From the NCBI GenBank assembly GCA_017555905.1, contig JAFZFP010000017.1:1-64000 (forward strand): a DNA stretch of 64,000 bases, read 5' to 3'. The stretch's first letter is position 1. Every line of letters begins with the position of its first letter. A program made the position numbers and the translations under genes. Origin of the DNA: Alistipes sp. GTDB lineage: Bacteria > Bacteroidota > Bacteroidia > Bacteroidales > Rikenellaceae. The notes under the pieces were generated by a model. It was not told the origin of the DNA. It saw nothing but the letters and a program-made list of their open reading frames with translations, and did not search any database. This document shows, piece after piece, positions 8,918-62,230 of this stretch.

Positions 8918-10834
8918 TTACTCTGCGCTAAGCATTGCACTCTTAGCCTTTTTTGGGGTTGCTACAACCAACGACTTCTGAAGAGATGTTGCTGATGCCT
9001 CATTTGCGAAGAACTCCTCGGCAGGAGCGCATCCCTCCCTGGTGAAGGTTGTATCCTTCGATGACCATACCTCGGTGAAGTTGCCGTCCTTATCCTCGGC
9101 AACGCCAAAGAAGATGTATGATGTGTCGAATTCGAAGGCATAGGTAGAGGTAACCTCTGCGCCACCCTCGGCAACGAGACCCTCGATGATCTGCTCATAC
9201 TGGTAGTATGGGAAGTCCAAAGAGTCCATAGCGTTGAAGTAGAACTCCACAGCCTCCTCATCTACGTTTGCCGTAATAGTAACGATAGCGGTGTCGGCAA
9301 AGGCCTCGTAGTCAGGATTCAACGCTGCTATCTCCGAGCCATCGTAGTATTTGTCGATGGTGAGCGAGAAGTCGAGGTTGGCATAGACTACCTCAGGGGT
9401 GGTGAATGTCAATCGATGCAACTCCGTTGTAGCCGCATTTGCCTGGCAACCAAATACCAAAAGGTCGTAAGAGGTAGATGGTACGAGGCCTGTAGCGGTG
9501 TCGCTCGAGGTGCCTGAAGCGTACTGAATATTGAAGTTGTCAAGGATGTACTGGATGATATCCTCGTCGGTGTTATCCTCGAAGCGTGAGGATGGAACAA
9601 GCGTAGCGACGTATGTGTCGTCGTTTGTTGTTGCGACCTTCACGGTAGCCTTACGAGGGTGCAACTCCTCAACTGAGAGGGTGAATGTGTTGTCCGAACC
9701 GGTCACGTTACCTGTGGTAAAGGTATAGGTCTCAGGTTTGGTGTTTAGCAATGCCTCATCGTCCATACCGAACGCCCAGAGTACGAACTCGGTGTTTGCA
9801 TCAAGTTCTACCTCTATATGCTCAGGGCCACGGAACGCCAACTCGTTGAATATGAAGTGGAGACCCTGCTCTGTGGTGTCGAAGAACGAAGAGTAGTATG
9901 CCTTAGTACTCTCCCAATCCGACTCGCAGAGTTCGCGGAACTCAGCCTCGCTCTTGCCCTTGACATCCTTTGCCCAGAACACGCCATAGTAGTAGTAACC
10001 GTCGTAGCCTACAGGGGCGATGTCGATAGATACGTTAGGACCATTTACCTCTACGTTGAAGTCGAAGTGGAGGGTGTAGTCATTAACGCTGGTGGTTGTT
10101 ATTGGAAGGCGAGTGATCTCTGTGAGTGGGGTGAGGGTCTCCTTGTCGAAACCGTAGGCGTAGGCTACGTAGGTAGAGCCTGGGGTAACACCAGTAATCT
10201 GGTGAGACATAAGGTCGCCAGTGTAGAGGAAGGCCGCTGCACCTGTAGAGGCGTCACCGCCAAAGGCAGCACCGAAACTCTCGAAGATCTCCAAATCGCT
10301 CTCCCACAACGCCTCATCGTCGTACATAAGGTTTGTACCATCGAAGTATTTGCCCGTGCCGAGGATGAAGATATATGGCATCTCTTTGTCTTGAGGTACT
10401 ACGTTCAAAGTGATGGTTGTAGCCGCAGCATTCACCAACTCAATCTTGATAGAGTGTTCCTTGCCCTTCTCCTGCTTTATGGTAATCATAGGGTTAGGAT
10501 ATAGGCCAGGATAGATAAGTTCCAGACGGCAGGTACGTGCCTCGGTATCAAAACTCTCGGCAACGTCGAACGAGATAACACCATCTACGGATGTATCTAC
10601 GTTGTAGACCCAACTCTTCTCGACGTTATACTTAAGTTCTGCACCCTCAGTAGCGCCAGTGAGGGTGTAGTCTACCTTGAAGTGTCCACCATCGGCTGTA
10701 ACATCGACAACACTGCTGAGGAGTTCGAACTTAACATCCTCGCTTGGTGTCTCGATGGCAGGCTCGTCACCCTTACACCCCGCCAGGAGTGTAAGGGTTA
10801 GAGTTGCACTAATTATTAACCAAATATTTTTCAT
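8918..10834 (-). CDS. BACON lipoprotein with four Fn3-like repeats
   Basis: A 638-residue predicted lipoprotein, signal ending at the lipobox LLAGC, Cys20. A BACON domain spans about 33-126 (GGHFKVDYTL at the start and ITIKQEKG at the end, the typical closing strand). Four Fn3-like beta modules follow at roughly 128-235, 250-375, 380-485 and 488-605, each ending with a Y-x-(L/V/F)-x-x-(F/A)-(G/A) strand and short TFTT-type linkers. It is the last gene of a three-lipoprotein operon (14535 to 8918). No enzyme motif was seen. A surface-exposed binding role is inference. Confidence 0.85.
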   Translation of the reverse strand: MKNIWLIISATLTLTLLAGCKGDEPAIETPSEDVKFELLSSVVDVTADGGHFKVDYTLTGATEGAELKYNVEKSWVYNVDTSVDGVISFDVAESFDTEARTCRLELIYPGLYPNPMITIKQEKGKEHSIKIELVNAAATTITLNVVPQDKEMPYIFILGTGKYFDGTNLMYDDEALWESDLEIFESFGAAFGGDASTGAAAFLYTGDLMSHQITGVTPGSTYVAYAYGFDKETLTPLTEITRLPITTTSVNDYTLHFDFNVEVNGPNVSIDIAPVGYDGYYYYGVFWAKDVKGKSEAEFRELCESDWESTKAYYSSFFDTTEQGLHFIFNELAFRGPEHIEVELDANTEFVLWAFGMDDEALLNTKPETYTFTTGNVTGSDNTFTLSVEELHPRKATVKVATTNDDTYVATLVPSSRFEDNTDEDIIQYILDNFNIQYASGTSSDTATGLVPSTSYDLLVFGCQANAATTELHRLTFTTPEVVYANLDFSLTIDKYYDGSEIAALNPDYEAFADTAIVTITANVDEEAVEFYFNAMDSLDFPYYQYEQIIEGLVAEGGAEVTSTYAFEFDTSYIFFGVAEDKDGNFTEVWSSKDTTFTREGCAPAEEFFANEASATSLQKSLVVATPKKAKSAMLSAE

Positions 10835-41564: not shown

Positions 41565-41597
41565 CAAAGTTATCAAAATTATTTTAAACTCTGCAAA
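41565..41597 (-). promoter_or_regulatory. Promoter of the ROK kinase gene
   Basis: Minus-strand TAACTTTG at 41565-41572 with TTTG at 41594-41597, 21 bases of spacer. A second -7-like box, TAATTTTG, overlaps just upstream at 41574-41581. The leader is about 25 bases. Confidence 0.7.
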
Positions 41598-53686: not shown

Positions 53687-54271
53687 ATGAATACAATACG
53701 TTGGGATTGGGGCCTTTTTGAGACGTTGAATTTCGATGGCGGAGAACTCTTCGATGCGCTTATGAGTGCCGTGTCGGGAGTGGCTATGTGGATTCCCTTC
53801 TACCTGCTCATTCTATTCCTTGTTTGGCGCAGATATAGCTGGCGAGGCCTGCTGATCTTCCTCCTTTCTATAGGAGTTGCTATGGGTGTTTCTGACCTTG
53901 TTGCAGGCATCTTCAAGCACTCTGGCCCATTGGCTGAGTTGTGGCCCTCGTTCCCCGTAAGGCCTCGCCCGATGTTTACCGAGGGGCTGTCAGATATACA
54001 CGTCGTCTCCTTTGATCACGGCCGCTATGGCACTGTCTCGGCACACGCCGCAACCATTGTGTCGTTAGCCCTGCTGAGTTCGTTGGTTGTTGCTCGTAGG
54101 TGGTTTACTATCCTTGTTTGGCTTGTTGCTGTGGCCGTATGCTACTCCCGTATATATCTTGCTTGCCACTTCCCACAAGATATATTGTTGGGTAGTTTGG
54201 TGGGCGTTTTATCGGCTCTTTTGGGCTATCTAATCTTCCGTTTCTTGGGTAAGTTGTGGGGTAGATTCTAA
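53687..54271 (+). CDS. PAP2-family membrane phosphatase
   Basis: Integral membrane phosphatase of the PAP2/BacA-unrelated class that removes phosphates from lipid carriers such as undecaprenyl diphosphate or from lipid A. The 194-residue chain has about five membrane helices. Seen: Lys77 and RPRP at 92-95 (motif C1, with a longer than usual spacer between Lys and Arg-Pro), SAH at 118-120 (motif C2) and SRIYLACHFPQD at 154-165 (motif C3 with the catalytic His161 and Asp165). It follows the MBOAT gene by 17 bases and ends the unit, in line with a job at the membrane surface. The substrate cannot be told. Confidence 0.92.
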   Translation: MNTIRWDWGLFETLNFDGGELFDALMSAVSGVAMWIPFYLLILFLVWRRYSWRGLLIFLLSIGVAMGVSDLVAGIFKHSGPLAELWPSFPVRPRPMFTEGLSDIHVVSFDHGRYGTVSAHAATIVSLALLSSLVVARRWFTILVWLVAVAVCYSRIYLACHFPQDILLGSLVGVLSALLGYLIFRFLGKLWGRF

Positions 54272-54305
54272 GTAGAATAGGTATTATTTAGTCTTTAAAA
54301 CTCTG

Positions 54306-54352
54306 TAATTTTGGGTTAGTTCCATTGGAGAATTAATCCAAAATTATTCTTT
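54306..54352 (+). terminator. Likely terminator after the PAP2 gene
   Basis: TAATTTTGGGTTA at 54306-54318 pairs with TAATCCAAAATTA at 54334-54346 (one G-T pair), followed by TTCTTT. The A/T-rich stem and short T-tract make it weaker than others. Confidence 0.65.
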
Positions 54353-54499
54353 ATATGCCAATCGGTATGTCCCTTGTTCGGTCGGTTTAATTGGTCAATA
54401 TTTCCACGGGTCTTTCGTTGATAAAATTATGAGTTTGATCCAAAACTTTTAATAGGATTTGACTCTGAAAAAATGGGAGAAAAATAAGTGCTATTTTCC

Positions 54500-54530
54500 T
54501 TGGTAGAATGAAAAAAAAATGCTACATTTG
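54500..54530 (+). promoter_or_regulatory. Promoter of the fimbrial operon with an A9 run in its spacer
   Basis: TTGG at 54500-54503, a 19-base spacer and TACATTTG at 54523-54530. The spacer holds nine consecutive A (54511-54519), so slippage would change the -33/-7 distance. The leader to the ATG at 54767 would be about 230 bases. Confidence 0.75.
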
Positions 54531-54541
54531 TATTGATGGAT

Positions 54542-54590
54542 TTGTCTATATACCCCCCCCCCTATTTTGGGGAAGTCCGCTGATAGACAA
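54542..54590 (+). promoter_or_regulatory. Leader hairpin carrying a C10 homopolymer
   Basis: TTGTCTAT at 54542-54549 pairs with ATAGACAA at 54583-54590. Inside, ten consecutive C (54553-54562) face GGGG at 54569-54572, so an inner stem can form and its register depends on C-tract length. It lies just downstream of the predicted transcription start. Confidence 0.7.
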
Positions 54591-54766
54591 GGGTTTAACG
54601 GCGATTGGGGTGTTTACAGATTGTTTTATCTCTGATGTAGAGGTGACGTGTGCAGAAACTTTTAATGAGATTTTTGAAAGAAATTTGATGTAGGAATATC
54701 TACTTTTTGCCGAGAATTTTTGCAGGCATAATGGTAGAAAACCTCGAAAGATATGTTTTTGGAGCA

Positions 54767-56467
54767 ATGAGAAGATTTTTATTTGCATTGTTGGTTTTGG
54801 TCCTTTTTCCACTTTTGCTGAGTGCTCAAGTCGATCGCGAGATTGAGAGGTCGGTGAAAGTGTACTTCCGTCAGGGTGTCGGAACTCTTGACGAGAGTTA
54901 TATGGGTAATGAAACCACGTTGAGAAATTTTGCCGAGGAGGTGAAGATGTACTATGCCGACTCAAATGCGCAGTTCCGACAGATCCGCATTGTGTCGAGT
55001 GTATCTCCTGAGGGATCTATGGCGATCAATGATCGAATTGCGAAGCATCGTGCCGAGGCTATCGCCGATTGGATTAGCCGTGAGATCAACGTGGAGGTTG
55101 GATACGCCGTTGAGTCGATGGGTGTCGATTGGGCGCGATTGACAGAGTTGGTTGAGGGTAACAGTGATGTTCCTTACCGCGATGAGTTGCTCGCACTCCT
55201 TAAGGAGAGTGAGGCCGCTGGCGACTCTACTGAGAAGCGCTTCGGCAAGATGATGCAGTTGCGTAACGGTGTGCCTTACCGTTGGGCTTATACTCATCTC
55301 TTCTCGGAGTTGCGTTATGCGGCTGCACGATGTGAGTTCTGGTGGGAGACAATCCCTACGCTCAATATCTCGAACGAGCCACAGCGTTGTGGTGCAATGG
55401 GTGGTGCTGTAGATGTGCCATACACAACTAATATGAACGACGGGGTTGTGCCTGAGGTGGTAAGTCCAGTTGATTGGATTACTCCAATGCCATCCTCGAT
55501 GAATGAGATTAAGCTCGTTGTCGCTCCAAACAGCGTGGCTACTCCTCGTTCTGCTAAGTTGGCTGTCGAGTACCACGGCGAGACCTACGACCTCGTGGTG
55601 GAGCAGGAACCTGCCGATCCTAAACTCACTATCACTTCTGCCGATAAGGTCAATTATGGCGCAGAGGGTGATAGCGACAAGATTACATACGAAAAGAATA
55701 TCGACGACGGTGTATTGCCTACGGTGAGCTGTTCGGCCGACTGGATTGAGTCATTGACTCCTACCGAGGAGGGTATCACCTATACCGTTGCAAAGAATAG
55801 TGCCGAGGAGCCACGTAGCACAACTATCGTTGTTGATAGTTATGGCGCTCAGCAGGAGGTTGTTATCAACCAGGAGGCGGCTAAGCCAGAGTGTGAGTCA
55901 CCTCTCTACATGGCGATTAAGACTAATATGTTATACGACCTTGCGGCAGTACCAAATATAGGTGCTGAGTTCTACCTTGGTGGCAATTTCTCTATCGCCG
56001 CCAACTACGCACACGCGTGGTGGTCAAAGGAGAAGAAGGGCTTCTATTGGCGCTACTACGGTGCTGATGCCTCAATCCGTTGGTGGTTCGGCAAGCCTAC
56101 ACGTATTAAGCCTTTGCAGGGTCACCACCTCGGCGTGAACTACCAGATTTTGACCTACGACTTCCAGCTCGGTAAGACAGGTATTATGGCGGGTATGCCT
56201 AAGGGTAACCTTGTTGATCGTGCCAACCATATCGTGGCTTTGGAGTATGGCTACTCACTGCCTATTGCTCGTCGTCTCAACCTCGACTTCAACGTAGGTT
56301 TCGGCTACCACTGGGGTTTGTTCGAGGAGTATGATGCAGTCGATGGTCACTCTGTATGGCAGGCTACTAAGCGTCGTCAGTATTTGGGTCCTACCAAGCT
56401 TGAGATATCGCTCGTATGGCTTATTGGCTGTGGTAACTACAATAAGGATAAAGGAGGCAAGAGATGA
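54767..56467 (+). CDS. OmpA-like / BACON x2 / DUF3575 outer-membrane protein of the fimbrial operon
   Basis: A 566-residue envelope protein. The ATG at 54767 (GGAG five bases upstream) starts a clean signal peptide ending at LLSA-Q near residue 20; an in-frame TTG 60 bases earlier would spoil it. Domains: an OmpA-like region at about 27-150 (RIVSSVSPEGS, then NDRIAKHRAEAIADWI); two BACON-like domains at about 205-281 and 285-370 (each closing with a VVEQE or VINQE strand); and a C-terminal DUF3575 domain at about 378-566 that starts MAIKTNMLYD and looks like an 8-stranded outer-membrane barrel. DUF3575 proteins sit next to FimA/Mfa1-type pilus genes in Bacteroidales. Overlaps the next gene by 4 bases. 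A role in anchoring or assembling the pilus is inferred. Confidence 0.87.
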   Translation: MRRFLFALLVLVLFPLLLSAQVDREIERSVKVYFRQGVGTLDESYMGNETTLRNFAEEVKMYYADSNAQFRQIRIVSSVSPEGSMAINDRIAKHRAEAIADWISREINVEVGYAVESMGVDWARLTELVEGNSDVPYRDELLALLKESEAAGDSTEKRFGKMMQLRNGVPYRWAYTHLFSELRYAAARCEFWWETIPTLNISNEPQRCGAMGGAVDVPYTTNMNDGVVPEVVSPVDWITPMPSSMNEIKLVVAPNSVATPRSAKLAVEYHGETYDLVVEQEPADPKLTITSADKVNYGAEGDSDKITYEKNIDDGVLPTVSCSADWIESLTPTEEGITYTVAKNSAEEPRSTTIVVDSYGAQQEVVINQEAAKPECESPLYMAIKTNMLYDLAAVPNIGAEFYLGGNFSIAANYAHAWWSKEKKGFYWRYYGADASIRWWFGKPTRIKPLQGHHLGVNYQILTYDFQLGKTGIMAGMPKGNLVDRANHIVALEYGYSLPIARRLNLDFNVGFGYHWGLFEEYDAVDGHSVWQATKRRQYLGPTKLEISLVWLIGCGNYNKDKGGKR

Positions 56468-57477
56468 AAAGATATTTACTTCTACTAACGGTTATGCTCA
56501 TAGGCGTTACGTCGTGCGAGCATAAGGATTTGTGTTACGATCACCGTGATCACGCACACCGCTACCATATCAACGTGATAGCCGACTACCGCCTTGACTG
56601 GGAGGAGTGCTTGGGTGGTATCGACTGGGAGGAGTCGTGGCCAGAGGACTATCTTGACTACGACGGCTTGCGCCCTTCCTATCCATCGGGTTTGCGTGTA
56701 GTTGCCTATAACGAGAAGGGTGACTATAACATCCACAATATCAAGCCTCAGGGTGGTGTGGTATCGTTGTATGAGGGTATGAACGACTTGCTCTTCTACA
56801 ACAACGATACGGAGTATATCATCTTCTCGCGTACTGGCAACGGTGCTACGACACGTGCTACGACACGTACACGTACGCGTGCTACCTACACACCAAGTGT
56901 CTACGCTAAGGAGGGCGAACCTACCTTGTCACCACCAGATATGCTCTTCGCGAACTACTACAAGAACTACTATGCCGAGAAGGTTGTGGAGCCTACGGAT
57001 GTGGAGGTAGAGCTTCAGCCATTGGTGTTTACCTACAAGATTCGTTATGAGTTCAAGAGTGGTTTGGAGTATGTCGCTATGGCGCGTGGTGCGCTTTCGG
57101 GTATGGCAAGTTCTGTTCTCTTGAATACTGGCGAGACCTCTGACGACTCTGCTACATTGTTGTTCGACTGCGAGGTTACCGACTATGGTGTGAGGGCTAT
57201 TGTGAACTCGTTCGGTGCTCCGGGCTATCCTAACCCTAACTACCCAACCCGTGCCGACAACCAGCACGCCTTGAACCTCGAGGTATTGTTGCGTAACGGT
57301 AGGACTATGAACTTCGACTACGATGTGACCAACCAACTTAAGTCGCAGCCTCACGGAGGTGTTATCGTTATCAAGGATATCGAGATCTCTGAGGAGGATG
57401 GTAAGCAGGGTTCTGGTGCCTTCGATGTAGAGGTTGATGATTGGGGTCCATACGAGGACGTACCATTGCCATTGTAG
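56464..57477 (+). CDS. DUF5119 lipoprotein, likely FimB/Mfa2-type anchor
   Basis: A 337-residue lipoprotein with lipobox GVTSC, Cys18. The following CEHKDLCYDHRDHAHRYHINV segment and the DWEE motif match the DUF5119 family, whose members resemble the Mfa2/FimB anchor fold and precede fimbrillin genes. An unusual Thr-Arg rich stretch lies at residues 129-140 (TTRATTRTRTRA), encoded by repeated ACACGT-like codons. The C-terminal half has a beta-sandwich pattern with LNLEVLLRNGRTMNFDYDV. The ATG overlaps the stop of the upstream gene (ATGA). It would attach the pilus shaft to the outer membrane and fix its length, by analogy with Mfa2. Confidence 0.83.
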   Translation: MKRYLLLLTVMLIGVTSCEHKDLCYDHRDHAHRYHINVIADYRLDWEECLGGIDWEESWPEDYLDYDGLRPSYPSGLRVVAYNEKGDYNIHNIKPQGGVVSLYEGMNDLLFYNNDTEYIIFSRTGNGATTRATTRTRTRATYTPSVYAKEGEPTLSPPDMLFANYYKNYYAEKVVEPTDVEVELQPLVFTYKIRYEFKSGLEYVAMARGALSGMASSVLLNTGETSDDSATLLFDCEVTDYGVRAIVNSFGAPGYPNPNYPTRADNQHALNLEVLLRNGRTMNFDYDVTNQLKSQPHGGVIVIKDIEISEEDGKQGSGAFDVEVDDWGPYEDVPLPL

Positions 57478-57566: not shown

Positions 57567-59957
57567 ATGAAAAAGATCTTACTAAGCGCATTCGCTATTT
57601 TTGCGATGATGGCTTGTAACAATGAGGAGCCTGTACGTCTACAGGAGCAGTCATTGATTACATTTGAAGATTCATTCGTTGAGGCTAAGACCCGTGCTGC
57701 TGTTGATCCAAGCATCACCACTACATCTATCGATGCATTCGACGTTTGGGGCTTCATCAACCAGCCTTCAGGTGTTGTTTTCGACGCTGAGCGAGTAACC
57801 AAGTCTGAAGATGGTGGTTGGGGTTATACTAACCTCCAGTACTGGATGCCAGATAAGTTTTACTATTTCCACGCTGTTGCTCCAGTTGATGACGCAAACA
57901 TCGTGGTTGATACTAAGGAAATGAATACCGCTGGTTTGGGAACTATCTCGTTCACCAATGACGGTGGTACAACTGACCTTATCTACGCTTCTAAGCACGT
58001 TCCTACTGGTAGCGATGTTATCAACAATGCTCCAGCACCTGTAGAGTTGAAGTTTATGCACCTCTTGTCAAAGATTAAGTTCACCTTCACTAACGGCTTC
58101 CCTAAAAACACATCGTTGAAGGTTACTGATATCAAGATTACCAATGCTCCTGCAAAGGGTAGTGTTGCTGTAAACAAGGAGCGTGAGGATTTCTCGTGGA
58201 ATCTTGTACAGGGCGAGACTACTGAGCTTGCTTTTGGTGACGTTAATGGTGGTGAGGCTTTGGCATCTCTTGCTTCTGACGAGTGTGCTGCAGAGCGCTT
58301 GACTATCCCTGCTGATGCAACTCGCAACTATAAAATCACCTTCACTTTGGAGCTCTTCTATGGCGACCAGTCTGCAGGTGTTAGCAATAAGGAGGTAACC
58401 CTTGAGAATCAGGAGTTTGCTATTGGCAAGAACTATAACATCACTGCCACTATCGACCGCAAGAACTTCTACGACGAGGAACTTAACCCTATCGAGTTCA
58501 CCGTTGTTGAGGTCGAGAAGTGGGATGAGAGTGTTATCAATGGTAACATCCACGATGACGAGTCTACAAATCCTGAGCAGCCTGAGCAGCCAGCTGAGCC
58601 TGAGGTATTGGCTAAGCCAGTTGTTGAGTCAACTGTTGCTGATAACGTAGTTACTTTGACTTGGGAAGCTGTTGAGGGCGCTAACGCTTACAGCGTCCAG
58701 GTTGATGACGATGTAGAGGAGACTGTTGAGGGTACATCATACACCTTCACTGGTGACTATGGTGTTACTTACACCTTCACTATCAAGGCTCTCCCAGCTA
58801 ACGAGGAGACTCACAAGGCTTCTGAGGCTACTGTAGTCACCGTAGAGATTCCTGCACAGACTACTCCAGAGCCAGAGATTCCTGCTGCTGGTTCTGCATT
58901 GTCAGTTGCTGATTTCTTGGCTTTGGCAAACGCTGAGAACGAGTATCAATTGACAGGTGTTATCACACGTGTAGTGAATACAACATACGGCAACTTTGAT
59001 CTTACTGATACTACTGGTACTATTTACATCTATGGCTTGGTTACTCCAGAGGGTGCTGAGAAGACTCAGTGGGCTGCTGCTGGTTTACGTATGGGTGATA
59101 CTATCACTATTAAGGGTAAGTACTCTTTGTACAATGATGAGCCACAGATTTCTAAGGCTGTATATGTAAGTCACGTACCTGCTCCATTTGTAGAGGCTAT
59201 TGCTACTACTGTAGAGGCAGCAGAGACTACTGCATCTATCCCAGTTTCTGCAAATGTTGCTTGGTCAGTAACTTGTGACGCTGCTTGGGTAACATCATTC
59301 ACTCAGAATGGTGAGAACAACGGTGCTATTGAGGTTGCTATGGAGGCTAACGAGAGCGAAGAGAATCGTGTTGCTAACTTCACTTTGACTGCTGATGGCC
59401 TTGAGGCTGTTGTAGTTAAGCTTACTCAGAAGGGCAAGCCTGCTGCTGGTGTGGTCGTAGGTGGCAATTCAGATTTTGCAACTCTGACTAACTCAAGTTC
59501 TTATGGTGATCAGAAGACTACTAATGGTTGGGTTGGTAAGAACTGTGCAGTAATGGCTGGTGGTTCAAATGATAGTAACCCTGTCTTCAAGACAATGATG
59601 GGTGCTGATAGTAGTGTTAAGGGTATGACTATGAATGGTAAGACTTCTGCTGTGGGTACCATTACATCTCCTACTATCTCTACTGGTTGTGGCACCTTGA
59701 AGTTCAAGTATGGCTATCCATTTAGCGAGTCTAATGGTGTCAAGTTCAAGGTTGAGATTAAGCAGAATGGTGCAGTTGTAGAAACTTACACAATCAATGA
59801 ACCATCTGCTACTAAACTCAAGGCCTATGAGTATGAGGCTGAGGTAAATGTTTCTGGTGAGTTCCAGATTGTATTTACTAACTTGTCTCCATCTAACTCT
59901 ACTTCTAACAAGGATCGTTACACTATCTGGGACGTTGAGTGGACTGGTTGCAACTAA
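57567..59957 (+). CDS. Fimbrillin-family protein 1 with large C-terminal adhesin-like extension
   Basis: A 796-residue lipoprotein pilin of the Mfa-like/fimbrillin family. Lipobox MMAC with Cys17, and Arg43 in KTRAAVDPS, where an Arg-specific protease would trim the mature pilin. The fimbrillin domain covers about 1-325 (with HLLSKIKFTFTNGF near 165). An extra half follows: an Fn3 domain at 346-430, an OB-fold-like domain at about 442-537 (QLTGVITRVVNTTYGNF), a BACON domain at 540-624, and a jelly-roll-like C-terminal domain at about 628-796. Ordinary shaft pilins are near 350 residues, so this is a candidate tip adhesin or a specialised subunit. First of four fimbrillins, 89 bases after the anchor gene. 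Confidence 0.88.
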   Translation: MKKILLSAFAIFAMMACNNEEPVRLQEQSLITFEDSFVEAKTRAAVDPSITTTSIDAFDVWGFINQPSGVVFDAERVTKSEDGGWGYTNLQYWMPDKFYYFHAVAPVDDANIVVDTKEMNTAGLGTISFTNDGGTTDLIYASKHVPTGSDVINNAPAPVELKFMHLLSKIKFTFTNGFPKNTSLKVTDIKITNAPAKGSVAVNKEREDFSWNLVQGETTELAFGDVNGGEALASLASDECAAERLTIPADATRNYKITFTLELFYGDQSAGVSNKEVTLENQEFAIGKNYNITATIDRKNFYDEELNPIEFTVVEVEKWDESVINGNIHDDESTNPEQPEQPAEPEVLAKPVVESTVADNVVTLTWEAVEGANAYSVQVDDDVEETVEGTSYTFTGDYGVTYTFTIKALPANEETHKASEATVVTVEIPAQTTPEPEIPAAGSALSVADFLALANAENEYQLTGVITRVVNTTYGNFDLTDTTGTIYIYGLVTPEGAEKTQWAAAGLRMGDTITIKGKYSLYNDEPQISKAVYVSHVPAPFVEAIATTVEAAETTASIPVSANVAWSVTCDAAWVTSFTQNGENNGAIEVAMEANESEENRVANFTLTADGLEAVVVKLTQKGKPAAGVVVGGNSDFATLTNSSSYGDQKTTNGWVGKNCAVMAGGSNDSNPVFKTMMGADSSVKGMTMNGKTSAVGTITSPTISTGCGTLKFKYGYPFSESNGVKFKVEIKQNGAVVETYTINEPSATKLKAYEYEAEVNVSGEFQIVFTNLSPSNSTSNKDRYTIWDVEWTGCN

Positions 59958-60103: not shown

Positions 60104-62230
60104 ATGAAAAAACTTTTCGTATCAGTACTCGCTATCGCGTCTATGGTAGCGTGTATGAATGAGGAGACCGTACGTTTGCAGGATCCTGCAGCTATCGGTT
60201 TCGAGGCTAACTGGGTAGAGAATGCAACTCGTGCTAACGCTGCTCTTGACCCATCTACAACTACTGAGTCTTTGACAGGCTTCAAGGTATGGGGCTTTAT
60301 GGACTCAGTTGATGGTAAGGTATTCGAGGGCGAGGAGGTAACTGGCTCAAAGGGTAACTTCACTTACAACAACATCGCTTACTGGTTGCCAGACCACACT
60401 TACTATTTCGCAGCTTTGGCTCCTATCGGTGGTAACTGGACTCTTAACACAGAGGCTGCTAACTACTATGGTGCTGGTATCGTAAACTTCCTTAACGCTA
60501 ACGGTACTGAGGATCTTCTCTACGCTGCAAATGTAGAGTCTGCTCCTGCTTTGGGTGAGGCTAAGACTGTAAACTTTACTTTCAGCCACCTTTTGTCAAA
60601 GGTTAAGTTTACTTTCACTAACGGTTTCACTAACGAGAATATGTACATCGACGTAAAGAATGTACGTATCGTTAACGCTCCTATGGCAGGTTCTATCAAC
60701 CTTGCAGTTGAGAACTGGTGGGACAACGATGATTGGAAACTTACAAATGACACTGTAGAGCTCGCATTCGGTGATGCTTGTGCAAAGACTGCTATGGGCG
60801 AGACTCAGGTAGCTGCTAACGAGCGTCTTACTATCCCTGCTTCTGCAGAGTATAAGTACGAGGTTAAGTTCGACGTTGCTCTTTATATGGGCGATGTACT
60901 TGCATACGAGGGTACAAAGACTTCTTATGTTCAGGGTGTAGCTCTTGAGATGGGTAAGGCTTACAACTTCTCAGCTACTTTGAACGCATCTAACTTCACA
61001 GAGGAGGGTAAGGAGCTTATGCCTATCGTATTCGACGTTGTTGAGGTTAAGGAGTGGGTTGAGGCTGGTGAGCAGACAACTGTTCTTCCATCAAACATCT
61101 CTGGCTTGACATTGGTTGCTGACGCTGTTGCAAAGAACACTTTGAACCTTAAGGGTTCATTCGACGGTGCTGGTCACACTTTGACAGCTGAGGCTGTAGA
61201 GGTTAAGGGTGGCGCTGCTCGTCTTATTGACGCTACTGCTGATTCACAGATTCGCAACTTGAACATTGACGGTGCTAATCTTGTAATTAAGGGTGATAAA
61301 GACTACGGTATTCGAGCTTTGTTCCTTAACGGTGCTGGTGATTTCGTTATTGACAACGTAACTATCAAGAACGTTACCTACACTATTAACGATGACTCAG
61401 CTGCAAAGACTATTAAGGTTATTAACTCTACTTTGGAGGGTTGGACTTCTTACAATCCTGCAACTGTAGCTACTTTCGAGAACGTTGAGTTTAAGTGCGG
61501 TCCTTCACAGAAGACATTCCGTCCACACGGTACTACAACATTGAAGAACTGTAACTTCGAGGAGGGCTTTGTAATCCGTCTTGACAAGCTTGCAGAAGGT
61601 AAAACTATTAAGTTCGAGAACTGTACTTACGCTGGTCGTGCTTTGACTTCTGCTGACTTGACATCTGCTCCTGCTGGTGCTGTAGAGGTTAAGGTTGCTG
61701 TTACAGAGGCTCCAGAGTCAAACGCTATCGTTACTGGCAGCGCTTCTAATATGACTATCGACGGTGGTAACTACACAACTACTGACGGTAAGGGTCTTCG
61801 CGCTATCTACCTCAATGGTGTTGAGGGCGAGTTCACTTTCGACAATATGGTTATCAAGAACGTAGCTTACGCTATCAACGTTAACTCTACAAAGGCTGTT
61901 ACTTTGAAGGTTTCTAACTCTACTTTGGAGGGTTGGACTTCTTACGGTAACTCTACTACAGCTACTTTCGATACTGTTAACTTCACTTGCGGTAACTACT
62001 ACGCTAACAACAAGGTATACTCAAGCAATGACAACGGTTTGTTCCGTCCTTACGGCGCAACTGTATGTAAGAACTGTACTTTCGAGGCTGGTTTCTACAT
62101 TGACCTTGGCTCACTTACAGGCACTCTTACATTGGATAACTGCTCTTACAATGGCGTTGTTCTCACTGAGGAGAATGTTGCTTCTGTAGCTTGCTTCGAT
62201 AACTTCGATGCATCTAAGCTTGTTTTCTAA
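60104..62230 (+). CDS. Fimbrillin-family protein 2 with duplicated beta-helix-like C-terminus
   Basis: A 708-residue lipoprotein pilin: lipobox MVAC with Cys17, putative processing Arg43 in ATRANAAL, fimbrillin domain about 1-325 with HLLSKVKFTFTNGF near 162. From about 330 onward the chain is rich in short N/D/V/T strands typical of a right-handed parallel beta helix, in two copies of about 140-155 residues (roughly 385-525 and 550-708). Both copies contain the exact STLEGWTSY segment, an FRP(H/Y)G(T/A)T turn and a KNC(N/T)FE(E/A)GF strand. Beta helices often bind glycans or act as stiff display modules. The second fimbrillin; a hairpin follows it. Codon use is strongly biased, as in highly expressed genes, by eye. 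Confidence 0.87.
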   Translation: MKKLFVSVLAIASMVACMNEETVRLQDPAAIGFEANWVENATRANAALDPSTTTESLTGFKVWGFMDSVDGKVFEGEEVTGSKGNFTYNNIAYWLPDHTYYFAALAPIGGNWTLNTEAANYYGAGIVNFLNANGTEDLLYAANVESAPALGEAKTVNFTFSHLLSKVKFTFTNGFTNENMYIDVKNVRIVNAPMAGSINLAVENWWDNDDWKLTNDTVELAFGDACAKTAMGETQVAANERLTIPASAEYKYEVKFDVALYMGDVLAYEGTKTSYVQGVALEMGKAYNFSATLNASNFTEEGKELMPIVFDVVEVKEWVEAGEQTTVLPSNISGLTLVADAVAKNTLNLKGSFDGAGHTLTAEAVEVKGGAARLIDATADSQIRNLNIDGANLVIKGDKDYGIRALFLNGAGDFVIDNVTIKNVTYTINDDSAAKTIKVINSTLEGWTSYNPATVATFENVEFKCGPSQKTFRPHGTTTLKNCNFEEGFVIRLDKLAEGKTIKFENCTYAGRALTSADLTSAPAGAVEVKVAVTEAPESNAIVTGSASNMTIDGGNYTTTDGKGLRAIYLNGVEGEFTFDNMVIKNVAYAINVNSTKAVTLKVSNSTLEGWTSYGNSTTATFDTVNFTCGNYYANNKVYSSNDNGLFRPYGATVCKNCTFEAGFYIDLGSLTGTLTLDNCSYNGVVLTEENVASVACFDNFDASKLVF
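61256..61678 (+). repeat. Internal duplication in fimbrillin 2, copy 1
   Basis: Codons 385-525 encode the first beta-helix-like copy, with STLEGWTSY and KNCNFEEGF. The nucleotide sequences of the STLEGWTSY part are the same in both copies over most codons. Confidence 0.7.
61751..62227 (+). repeat. Internal duplication in fimbrillin 2, copy 2
   Basis: Codons 550-708 encode the second copy, slightly longer because of an insertion (NNKVYSSNDNG) before the FRPYG turn. Confidence 0.7.

Follow-up and report, generated by a model that had tools for sequence, protein, structure and literature searches.

A conserved poly-C tract in the leader of a fimbrial operon of an Alistipes-like bacterium as a candidate slippage switch

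The leader of a fimbrial operon in an Alistipes-like gut bacterium carries a run of ten C's (C10) that belongs to a non-random set of C/G tracts, about 9 nt long, found within or next to surface and regulatory genes of the genus. On balance, I favour the reading that C10 is a contingency (hypermutable) tract in the 5' leader that controls this Bacteroidota fimbrial operon. Replication slippage, which is likely at C10 on general grounds, would add or remove C's and alter the leader by single bases, and the changed leader would raise, lower or switch fimbrial expression in part of the population. The preliminary description of this DNA had proposed a phase-variation switch built on two homopolymers, an A tract (A9) in the promoter spacer and the C tract in a leader hairpin. 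Of this proposal the C tract stands as a candidate, in view of its conservation in fimbrial leaders and of the non-random set to which it belongs in the genus, whereas A9 and the hairpin register do not.

The window, i.e. the whole stretch of DNA analysed (64,000 nt), comes from a 1.77-Mb assembly of 29 contigs and contains the fimbrial promoter, the leader and the first genes of the operon (Table 1). Both tracts and the promoter boxes were confirmed as first described, including the 19-nt spacer between TTGG and the -7 element TACATTTG. The -7 consensus, TANNTTTGY, is that of Bacteroides (passages in PMC12632263). The long frame that ends at a TAG just before 54687 has its ATG at 54508, within the promoter region. 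C10 is the sole C run of at least 6 nt in the 64-kb window, for which the decay of shorter runs, when extrapolated, predicts about 0.0002 runs of at least C10; it is the kind of homopolymer, far longer than chance, that is looked for at a contingency locus. Two A9 runs are present in the window (the second at 41595), where the expected number of runs of at least A9 is about 0.04.

Table 1. Features of the fimbrial promoter, leader and operon in the window, and open frames with G tracts in genome G002
Feature	Position	Strand	Remark
TTGG, -33-like element	54500..54503	+	19 nt ahead of the -7 box
A9 within the promoter spacer, probably incidental	54511..54519	+	missing in 6 other spacers read
TACATTTG, -7 element (TAnnTTTG)	54523..54530	+	assigned from sequence; Bacteroides consensus TANNTTTGY (passages in PMC12632263)
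Short frame MDLSIYPPPYFGEVR crossing C10	54536..54583	+	from frame reading
C10 leader tract	54553..54562	+	22 nt past the -7 box, 204 nt ahead of the start codon; conserved in homologues
GGGG	54569..54572	+	6 nt beyond the tract; paired in the predicted fold to four of the tract's C's
CTGATAGACAAG, degenerate copy of the YTGATnAT element	54580..54591	+	in other leaders, element downstream of the tract
First operon gene: signal peptide, BACON domains, DUF3575	54767..56467	+	
DUF5119 protein	56464..57477	+	
Lipoprotein with Mfa_like_1 (fimbrillin) match	57567..59957	+	
Mfa_like_1 fimbrillin	60104..62230	+	more fimbrillins follow, up to 67176 on the contig
SusC-like receptor frame with G8-G9 tract (G002)	L142:4928-8473	-	
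ECF sigma factor, TetR and PspC frames with G8-G9 tract (G002)	L145:17467-18081, L147:9904-10545, L156:126-620	L145 -, L156 -	

An alignment of the first operon protein was used to search 180 genomes of the genus at a threshold of E 1e-80, which 30 places in 24 genomes passed. Three places in G175 (fused copies with an unclear start) and three second segments belonging to genes counted before (L227, L228 and L240) were dropped, which left 24 loci, 14 of them full-length (window included) and 10 shorter. All 14 full-length loci had a C/G run of at least 7 nt in the 450 nt ahead of the first gene, and the tracts were strongly concentrated there, with 15 in 6,071 bp upstream compared to 1 in the remaining 54,230 bp of these loci (a rate ratio of 134, with Fisher p 1.6e-14 when sites are treated as independent). 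Eight of the 14 (window included) had a sense C tract in the leader, once as C7, five times as C9 and twice as C10, while the remaining six had C8, G8 or G9 elsewhere upstream or on the other strand. Six of the 10 shorter relatives had a tract within 450 nt upstream, amounting to 6 tracts in 4,226 bp versus 4 in 30,330 bp elsewhere (p 0.0005); L231 and L238, 2 of these 10, had no tract in the stretch examined. The full-length loci include L219, for which just 221 nt of upstream sequence was available. Two loci (L232 and L235) have uncertain start codons, and the G9 of L235 may fall in the signal-peptide region of its frame.

A tract is thus kept at this gene across relatives, as is looked for at a contingency locus. 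Its length varies among the fimbrial homologues (C7, C9, C10), which are, however, distant from one another and represented by one genome per species. Conservation of a tract that shifts in place and strand would fit a role in mutability better than one binding sequence. Seven leaders, that of the window among them, reach a visible promoter. In these the C tract starts 20-28 nt past the TAnnTTTG box, and five of them have TTTG or TTGG upstream of this -7 box at a distance of 19-20 nt. Two of the 10 shorter loci, L234 (G148) and L236 (G135), encode DUF3575 relatives of the first fimbrial protein and carry G9 inside the start of the coding sequence, which in L234 is within the signal peptide. 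Divergent genes at L094 have a region in common with two tracts (positions 9405 and 9748), C9 in the fimbrial leader and, on the opposite strand, C11 placed 19 nt past a TAACTTTG box.

Gain or loss of an A in the promoter spacer had been put forward as a second switch, acting through the changed 19-nt spacing. The length and place of A9 are suitable for this, and 5 of 7 leaders share a spacing of 19-20 nt; however, A9 is absent from all 6 of the other comparable homologous spacers that were read (the G065 spacer has a T8 run), and the window holds a second A9. A9 is probably incidental, and I consider its action as a spacer switch very unlikely. Neither tract has the arrangement of a promoter-spacer homopolymer switch, C10 lying after the -7 box and A9 lying in the spacer but unconserved. 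Because C10 follows the -7 box, a change of promoter spacing cannot apply to the leader tract, and its effect would have to come about in another way.

The hairpin-register idea, by which a gained or lost C would shift the pairing with GGGG, was not supported by prediction. Folding the C10 leader with 6 to 14 C's (start site assumed) gave the same predicted MFE, -32.5 kcal/mol, for all lengths between C8 and C14, since GGGG pairs with four C's however long the tract is. GGG follows 5-7 nt past the tract in 5 of 8 leaders, while the other three have none closely after it. Nine leaders folded singly had no common fold evident, and a comparison of 54270-54800 with Rfam returned no RNA family above the cut-off and one chance-level match (E 0.59).

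Slippage may instead alter the spacing from the promoter to a YTGATnAT element downstream of the tract. This element lies 16-18 nt past the tract in seven leaders (G065 has TTGAATGTCA), and the distance from the -7 box to YTGA, tract included, is 46-53 nt in seven leaders, a figure that does not separate the models. Another conceivable route is that a trans RNA or a protein pairs with the leader or binds it differently, as in the H. pylori tlpB G-repeat. Finally, slippage might change the frame of a short leader peptide: a 15-codon frame of the window crosses C10 and would become 32 codons long with one C fewer and 52 codons with one C more, and an ATG frame runs across the tract in 4 of 7 leaders, compared to 2.6 expected after shuffling.

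The window's own genome has 19 C runs of at least 7 nt on both strands (three of 7, six of 8, nine of 9 and one of 10 nt), and 10 of the 19 are at least 9 nt long, whereas a chance decay of 0.13 per base predicts 1.7%. In 400 kb of G002, C runs of 5 to 10 nt numbered 77, 5, 0, 0, 5 and 1, respectively, and G runs of 5 to 11 nt numbered 116, 0, 0, 2, 1, 0 and 1. Among 105 distinct contexts with C8 or longer, gathered in several ways, 73 were C9, 21 C8, 8 C10 and 3 C11; a share of 73 tracts at exactly C9 is tighter than free slippage might give and could also mean a fixed element. C/G tracts were present in all 61 genus genomes searched. Of 119 genomes sampled from the order, 114 also had tracts of C8 or longer, in some cases many, which counts against a trait unique to the genus. 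Other Bacteroidales genera rich in such tracts include those of G271 (136 in 1.3 Mb) and G214 (96 in 4.8 Mb). The G8-G9 tracts inside open frames of G002 (Table 1) are candidate frame switches.

A family search found two fimbrillin clusters in the window's own genome, and both have a C/G tract upstream: C10 in the window, and C8 placed 127 nt before the first gene of the cluster on contig C13. A third cluster was left out of this count, having been met through its own tract. In the same genome, a protein matching Pfam Mac-1 (E 1.4e-11) has a C8 tract at 25 bp from its end (L083, G000:C11, near 154267). The arrangement of TAnnTTTG followed by 14-29 nt and C8 was not enriched in the genus (40 matches versus 33 in the control), so that the leader position rests on related fimbrial operons, which share ancestry.

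Two other arrangements were enriched. G8 or longer followed by TAnnTTTG at 0-13 nt gave 106 matches in 54 of 121 genomes, compared to 20 for the reversed-pattern control, and at 14-27 nt there were 42 matches versus 20. When 30 of the G-tract loci were read (L187-L216), TTTG preceded the -7 box by 15-25 nt in 21, and in 13 of these by exactly 18 nt, while in G002 a TTTG at 15-25 nt was present for 45 of 266 boxes (p 4e-9). These loci, with G8-G11 between TTTG -33 and TAnnTTTG -7 boxes, resemble promoters whose spacer contains a G tract. Slippage in a promoter spacer, as had been suggested for A9, is an idea that fails at the fimbrial promoter but is consistent with the G-tract promoters elsewhere in the genus. 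A G-spacer promoter of the window's own genome (L212, G000:C4:13895-13918) is located upstream of a short secreted-looking protein.

TGATnATCA followed by 2-12 nt and AC8 was matched 35 times in 28 of 180 genomes, and the reversed control gave 0 matches. Twenty-four of 30 such TGATnATCA-tract loci lay beside a lipobox-like ORF, compared to 19 of 86 control gaps (p 3e-8), several of the loci being homologous to one another and the lipobox pattern being rough. The composite motif read at L245-L274 consists of TGATnATCA, about 6-8 nt, TA and C9; it occurs in either orientation, near lipoprotein and fimbrillin-like genes.

Tract length was then compared in repeated contexts (eight sets, 20 stretches). 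Lengths differed with near-identical surroundings in 2 of the 8 sets and were equal in 5. Two contig ends of G094 agree without mismatch over 10 nt to the left and 117 nt to the right, yet have G10 and G9; two contigs of G004 have 133 nt to the left and 109 nt to the right in common, yet have G10 and G8. The G004 tract sits in a promoter spacer, which is 20 nt long with G10 or 18 nt with G8. Copies in G170, which are more diverged, have G9, G8 and G9. In the window's own genome, 2 of the 19 tracts lie less than 300 bp from a contig end, versus 0.19 expected (p 0.015). Passages in PMC4235727 describe Illumina sequencing as error-prone at poly-C/G of at least 8 nt, with contigs often ending there (22 of 31 meningococcal tracts), so both length differences and the two contig-end tracts may be technical. 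The differences in G094 and G004 and the contig-end tracts suggest variable tracts and fit them, with population variation, paralogues and error not distinguishable as their source.

The same observations bear on other explanations of C10. It may be a fixed regulatory element of the leader, such as a protein or sRNA site or the initially transcribed region, that is kept for its sequence and not for its mutability. The narrow position in seven leaders, 20-28 nt past the -7 box, is what a fixed element would give, as are the predominance of C9 (5 of 8 leaders and 73 of the 105 tracts in the wider set) and the association with TGATnATCA (35 versus 0). Against this, 6 of 14 homologues have the tract on the other strand or elsewhere, and in some relatives it is within the coding sequence, which one binding site would not explain; I regard a fixed element as unlikely, if plausible. 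Quite improbable is the idea that C/G tracts grow neutrally by a mutational bias of the genus and are near fimbriae incidentally. Their presence in 61 of 61 genus genomes and 114 of 119 order-sample genomes, some with many, agrees with such a bias, but their concentration upstream of fimbrial genes (the 134-fold rate within the same loci), in promoter spacers (106 versus 20) and beside lipobox genes (24 of 30 versus 19 of 86) does not.

An invertible promoter is a further alternative, as surface genes of Bacteroidales usually switch in this way according to passages in PMC12632263, and one imperfect inverted repeat (11 nt with one mismatch) does bracket the promoter. Inverted repeats around the fimbrial promoter are nevertheless at chance level, with this one pair compared to a mean of 1.65 in 20 Markov resamples, and I consider inversion extremely unlikely here. 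The earlier statement that no inverted repeats flank this promoter consequently holds in substance. The reading of C10 as a contingency tract of the leader is the one I retain.

More tentatively, and with somewhat less than even confidence, I propose that Alistipes-like bacteria have a genome-wide slippage phasome of stereotyped C/G tracts of about 9 nt, with the fimbrial leader tract acting via a new route, e.g. the spacing from the promoter to a downstream operator. Such a phasome would act at spacer-G9 promoters (TTTG, about 2 nt, G9, an AATTT-rich stretch and TAnnTTTG), at an upstream or leader module of tract and TGATnATCA, and in reading frames. Its targets would be type V fimbriae, surface lipoproteins, SusC-like receptors and ECF sigma factors. 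All of this would take place in an order in which the switches known are DNA inversions. If so, there is a second switching system in a common gut genus, and it could be tracked in metagenomes by tract length, and the spacer tracts would be a natural experiment on Bacteroidota promoter geometry. The passages on phase variation in two reviews (PMC12632263 and PMC11868660) leave homopolymer switching in Bacteroidales unmentioned, and in a passage of a 2013 survey of frame transitions 20 Bacteroidetes species are counted and Alistipes goes unnamed (PMC3711429). Among the matches listed for the open-access literature, titles and abstracts contained no Alistipes slippage tracts and no such Bacteroidales promoters, subscription papers being mostly outside this search.

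Poly-C/G tracts of Campylobacter and Neisseria are typically about 8-11 nt long, and in the Bordetella fim promoters the C-tract is found within the promoter, upstream of the -10 box. The present case resembles Bordetella fim in having a C tract upstream of fimbrial genes and differs in that the tract comes after the -7 box. In Campylobacter and Neisseria, poly-C/G contingency tracts are attached to surface genes (passages in PMC4235727); here, too, C/G tracts lie by surface genes, in coding, spacer and leader positions, but the host order is Bacteroidales and slippage is predicted. Bacteroidales fimbriae and capsules are described as phase-variable through invertible promoters (passages in PMC12632263 and PMC11868660), which concerns the same order and likewise surface structures including fimbriae, whereas flanking inverted repeats are not above chance here. 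In Bacteroides fragilis, slippage has been offered as a possibility for four consecutive C's in an O-acetyltransferase region (a passage in PMC3090145). Among the papers covered this is the single earlier mention of slippage as a possible cause of variation in Bacteroidales, but that case concerns a coding region and a difference between strains, with no long tract, leader or spacer. A further related case is the H. pylori tlpB-hp0102 leader, in which a G-repeat is read by the sRNA RepG and its length, 6-16, tunes expression (passages in PMC8295292): both cases have a homopolymer in the mRNA leader of surface-related genes, and they differ in that the tract here consists of C and not G, the phylum and promoter type are others, and the effect of length is a candidate one.
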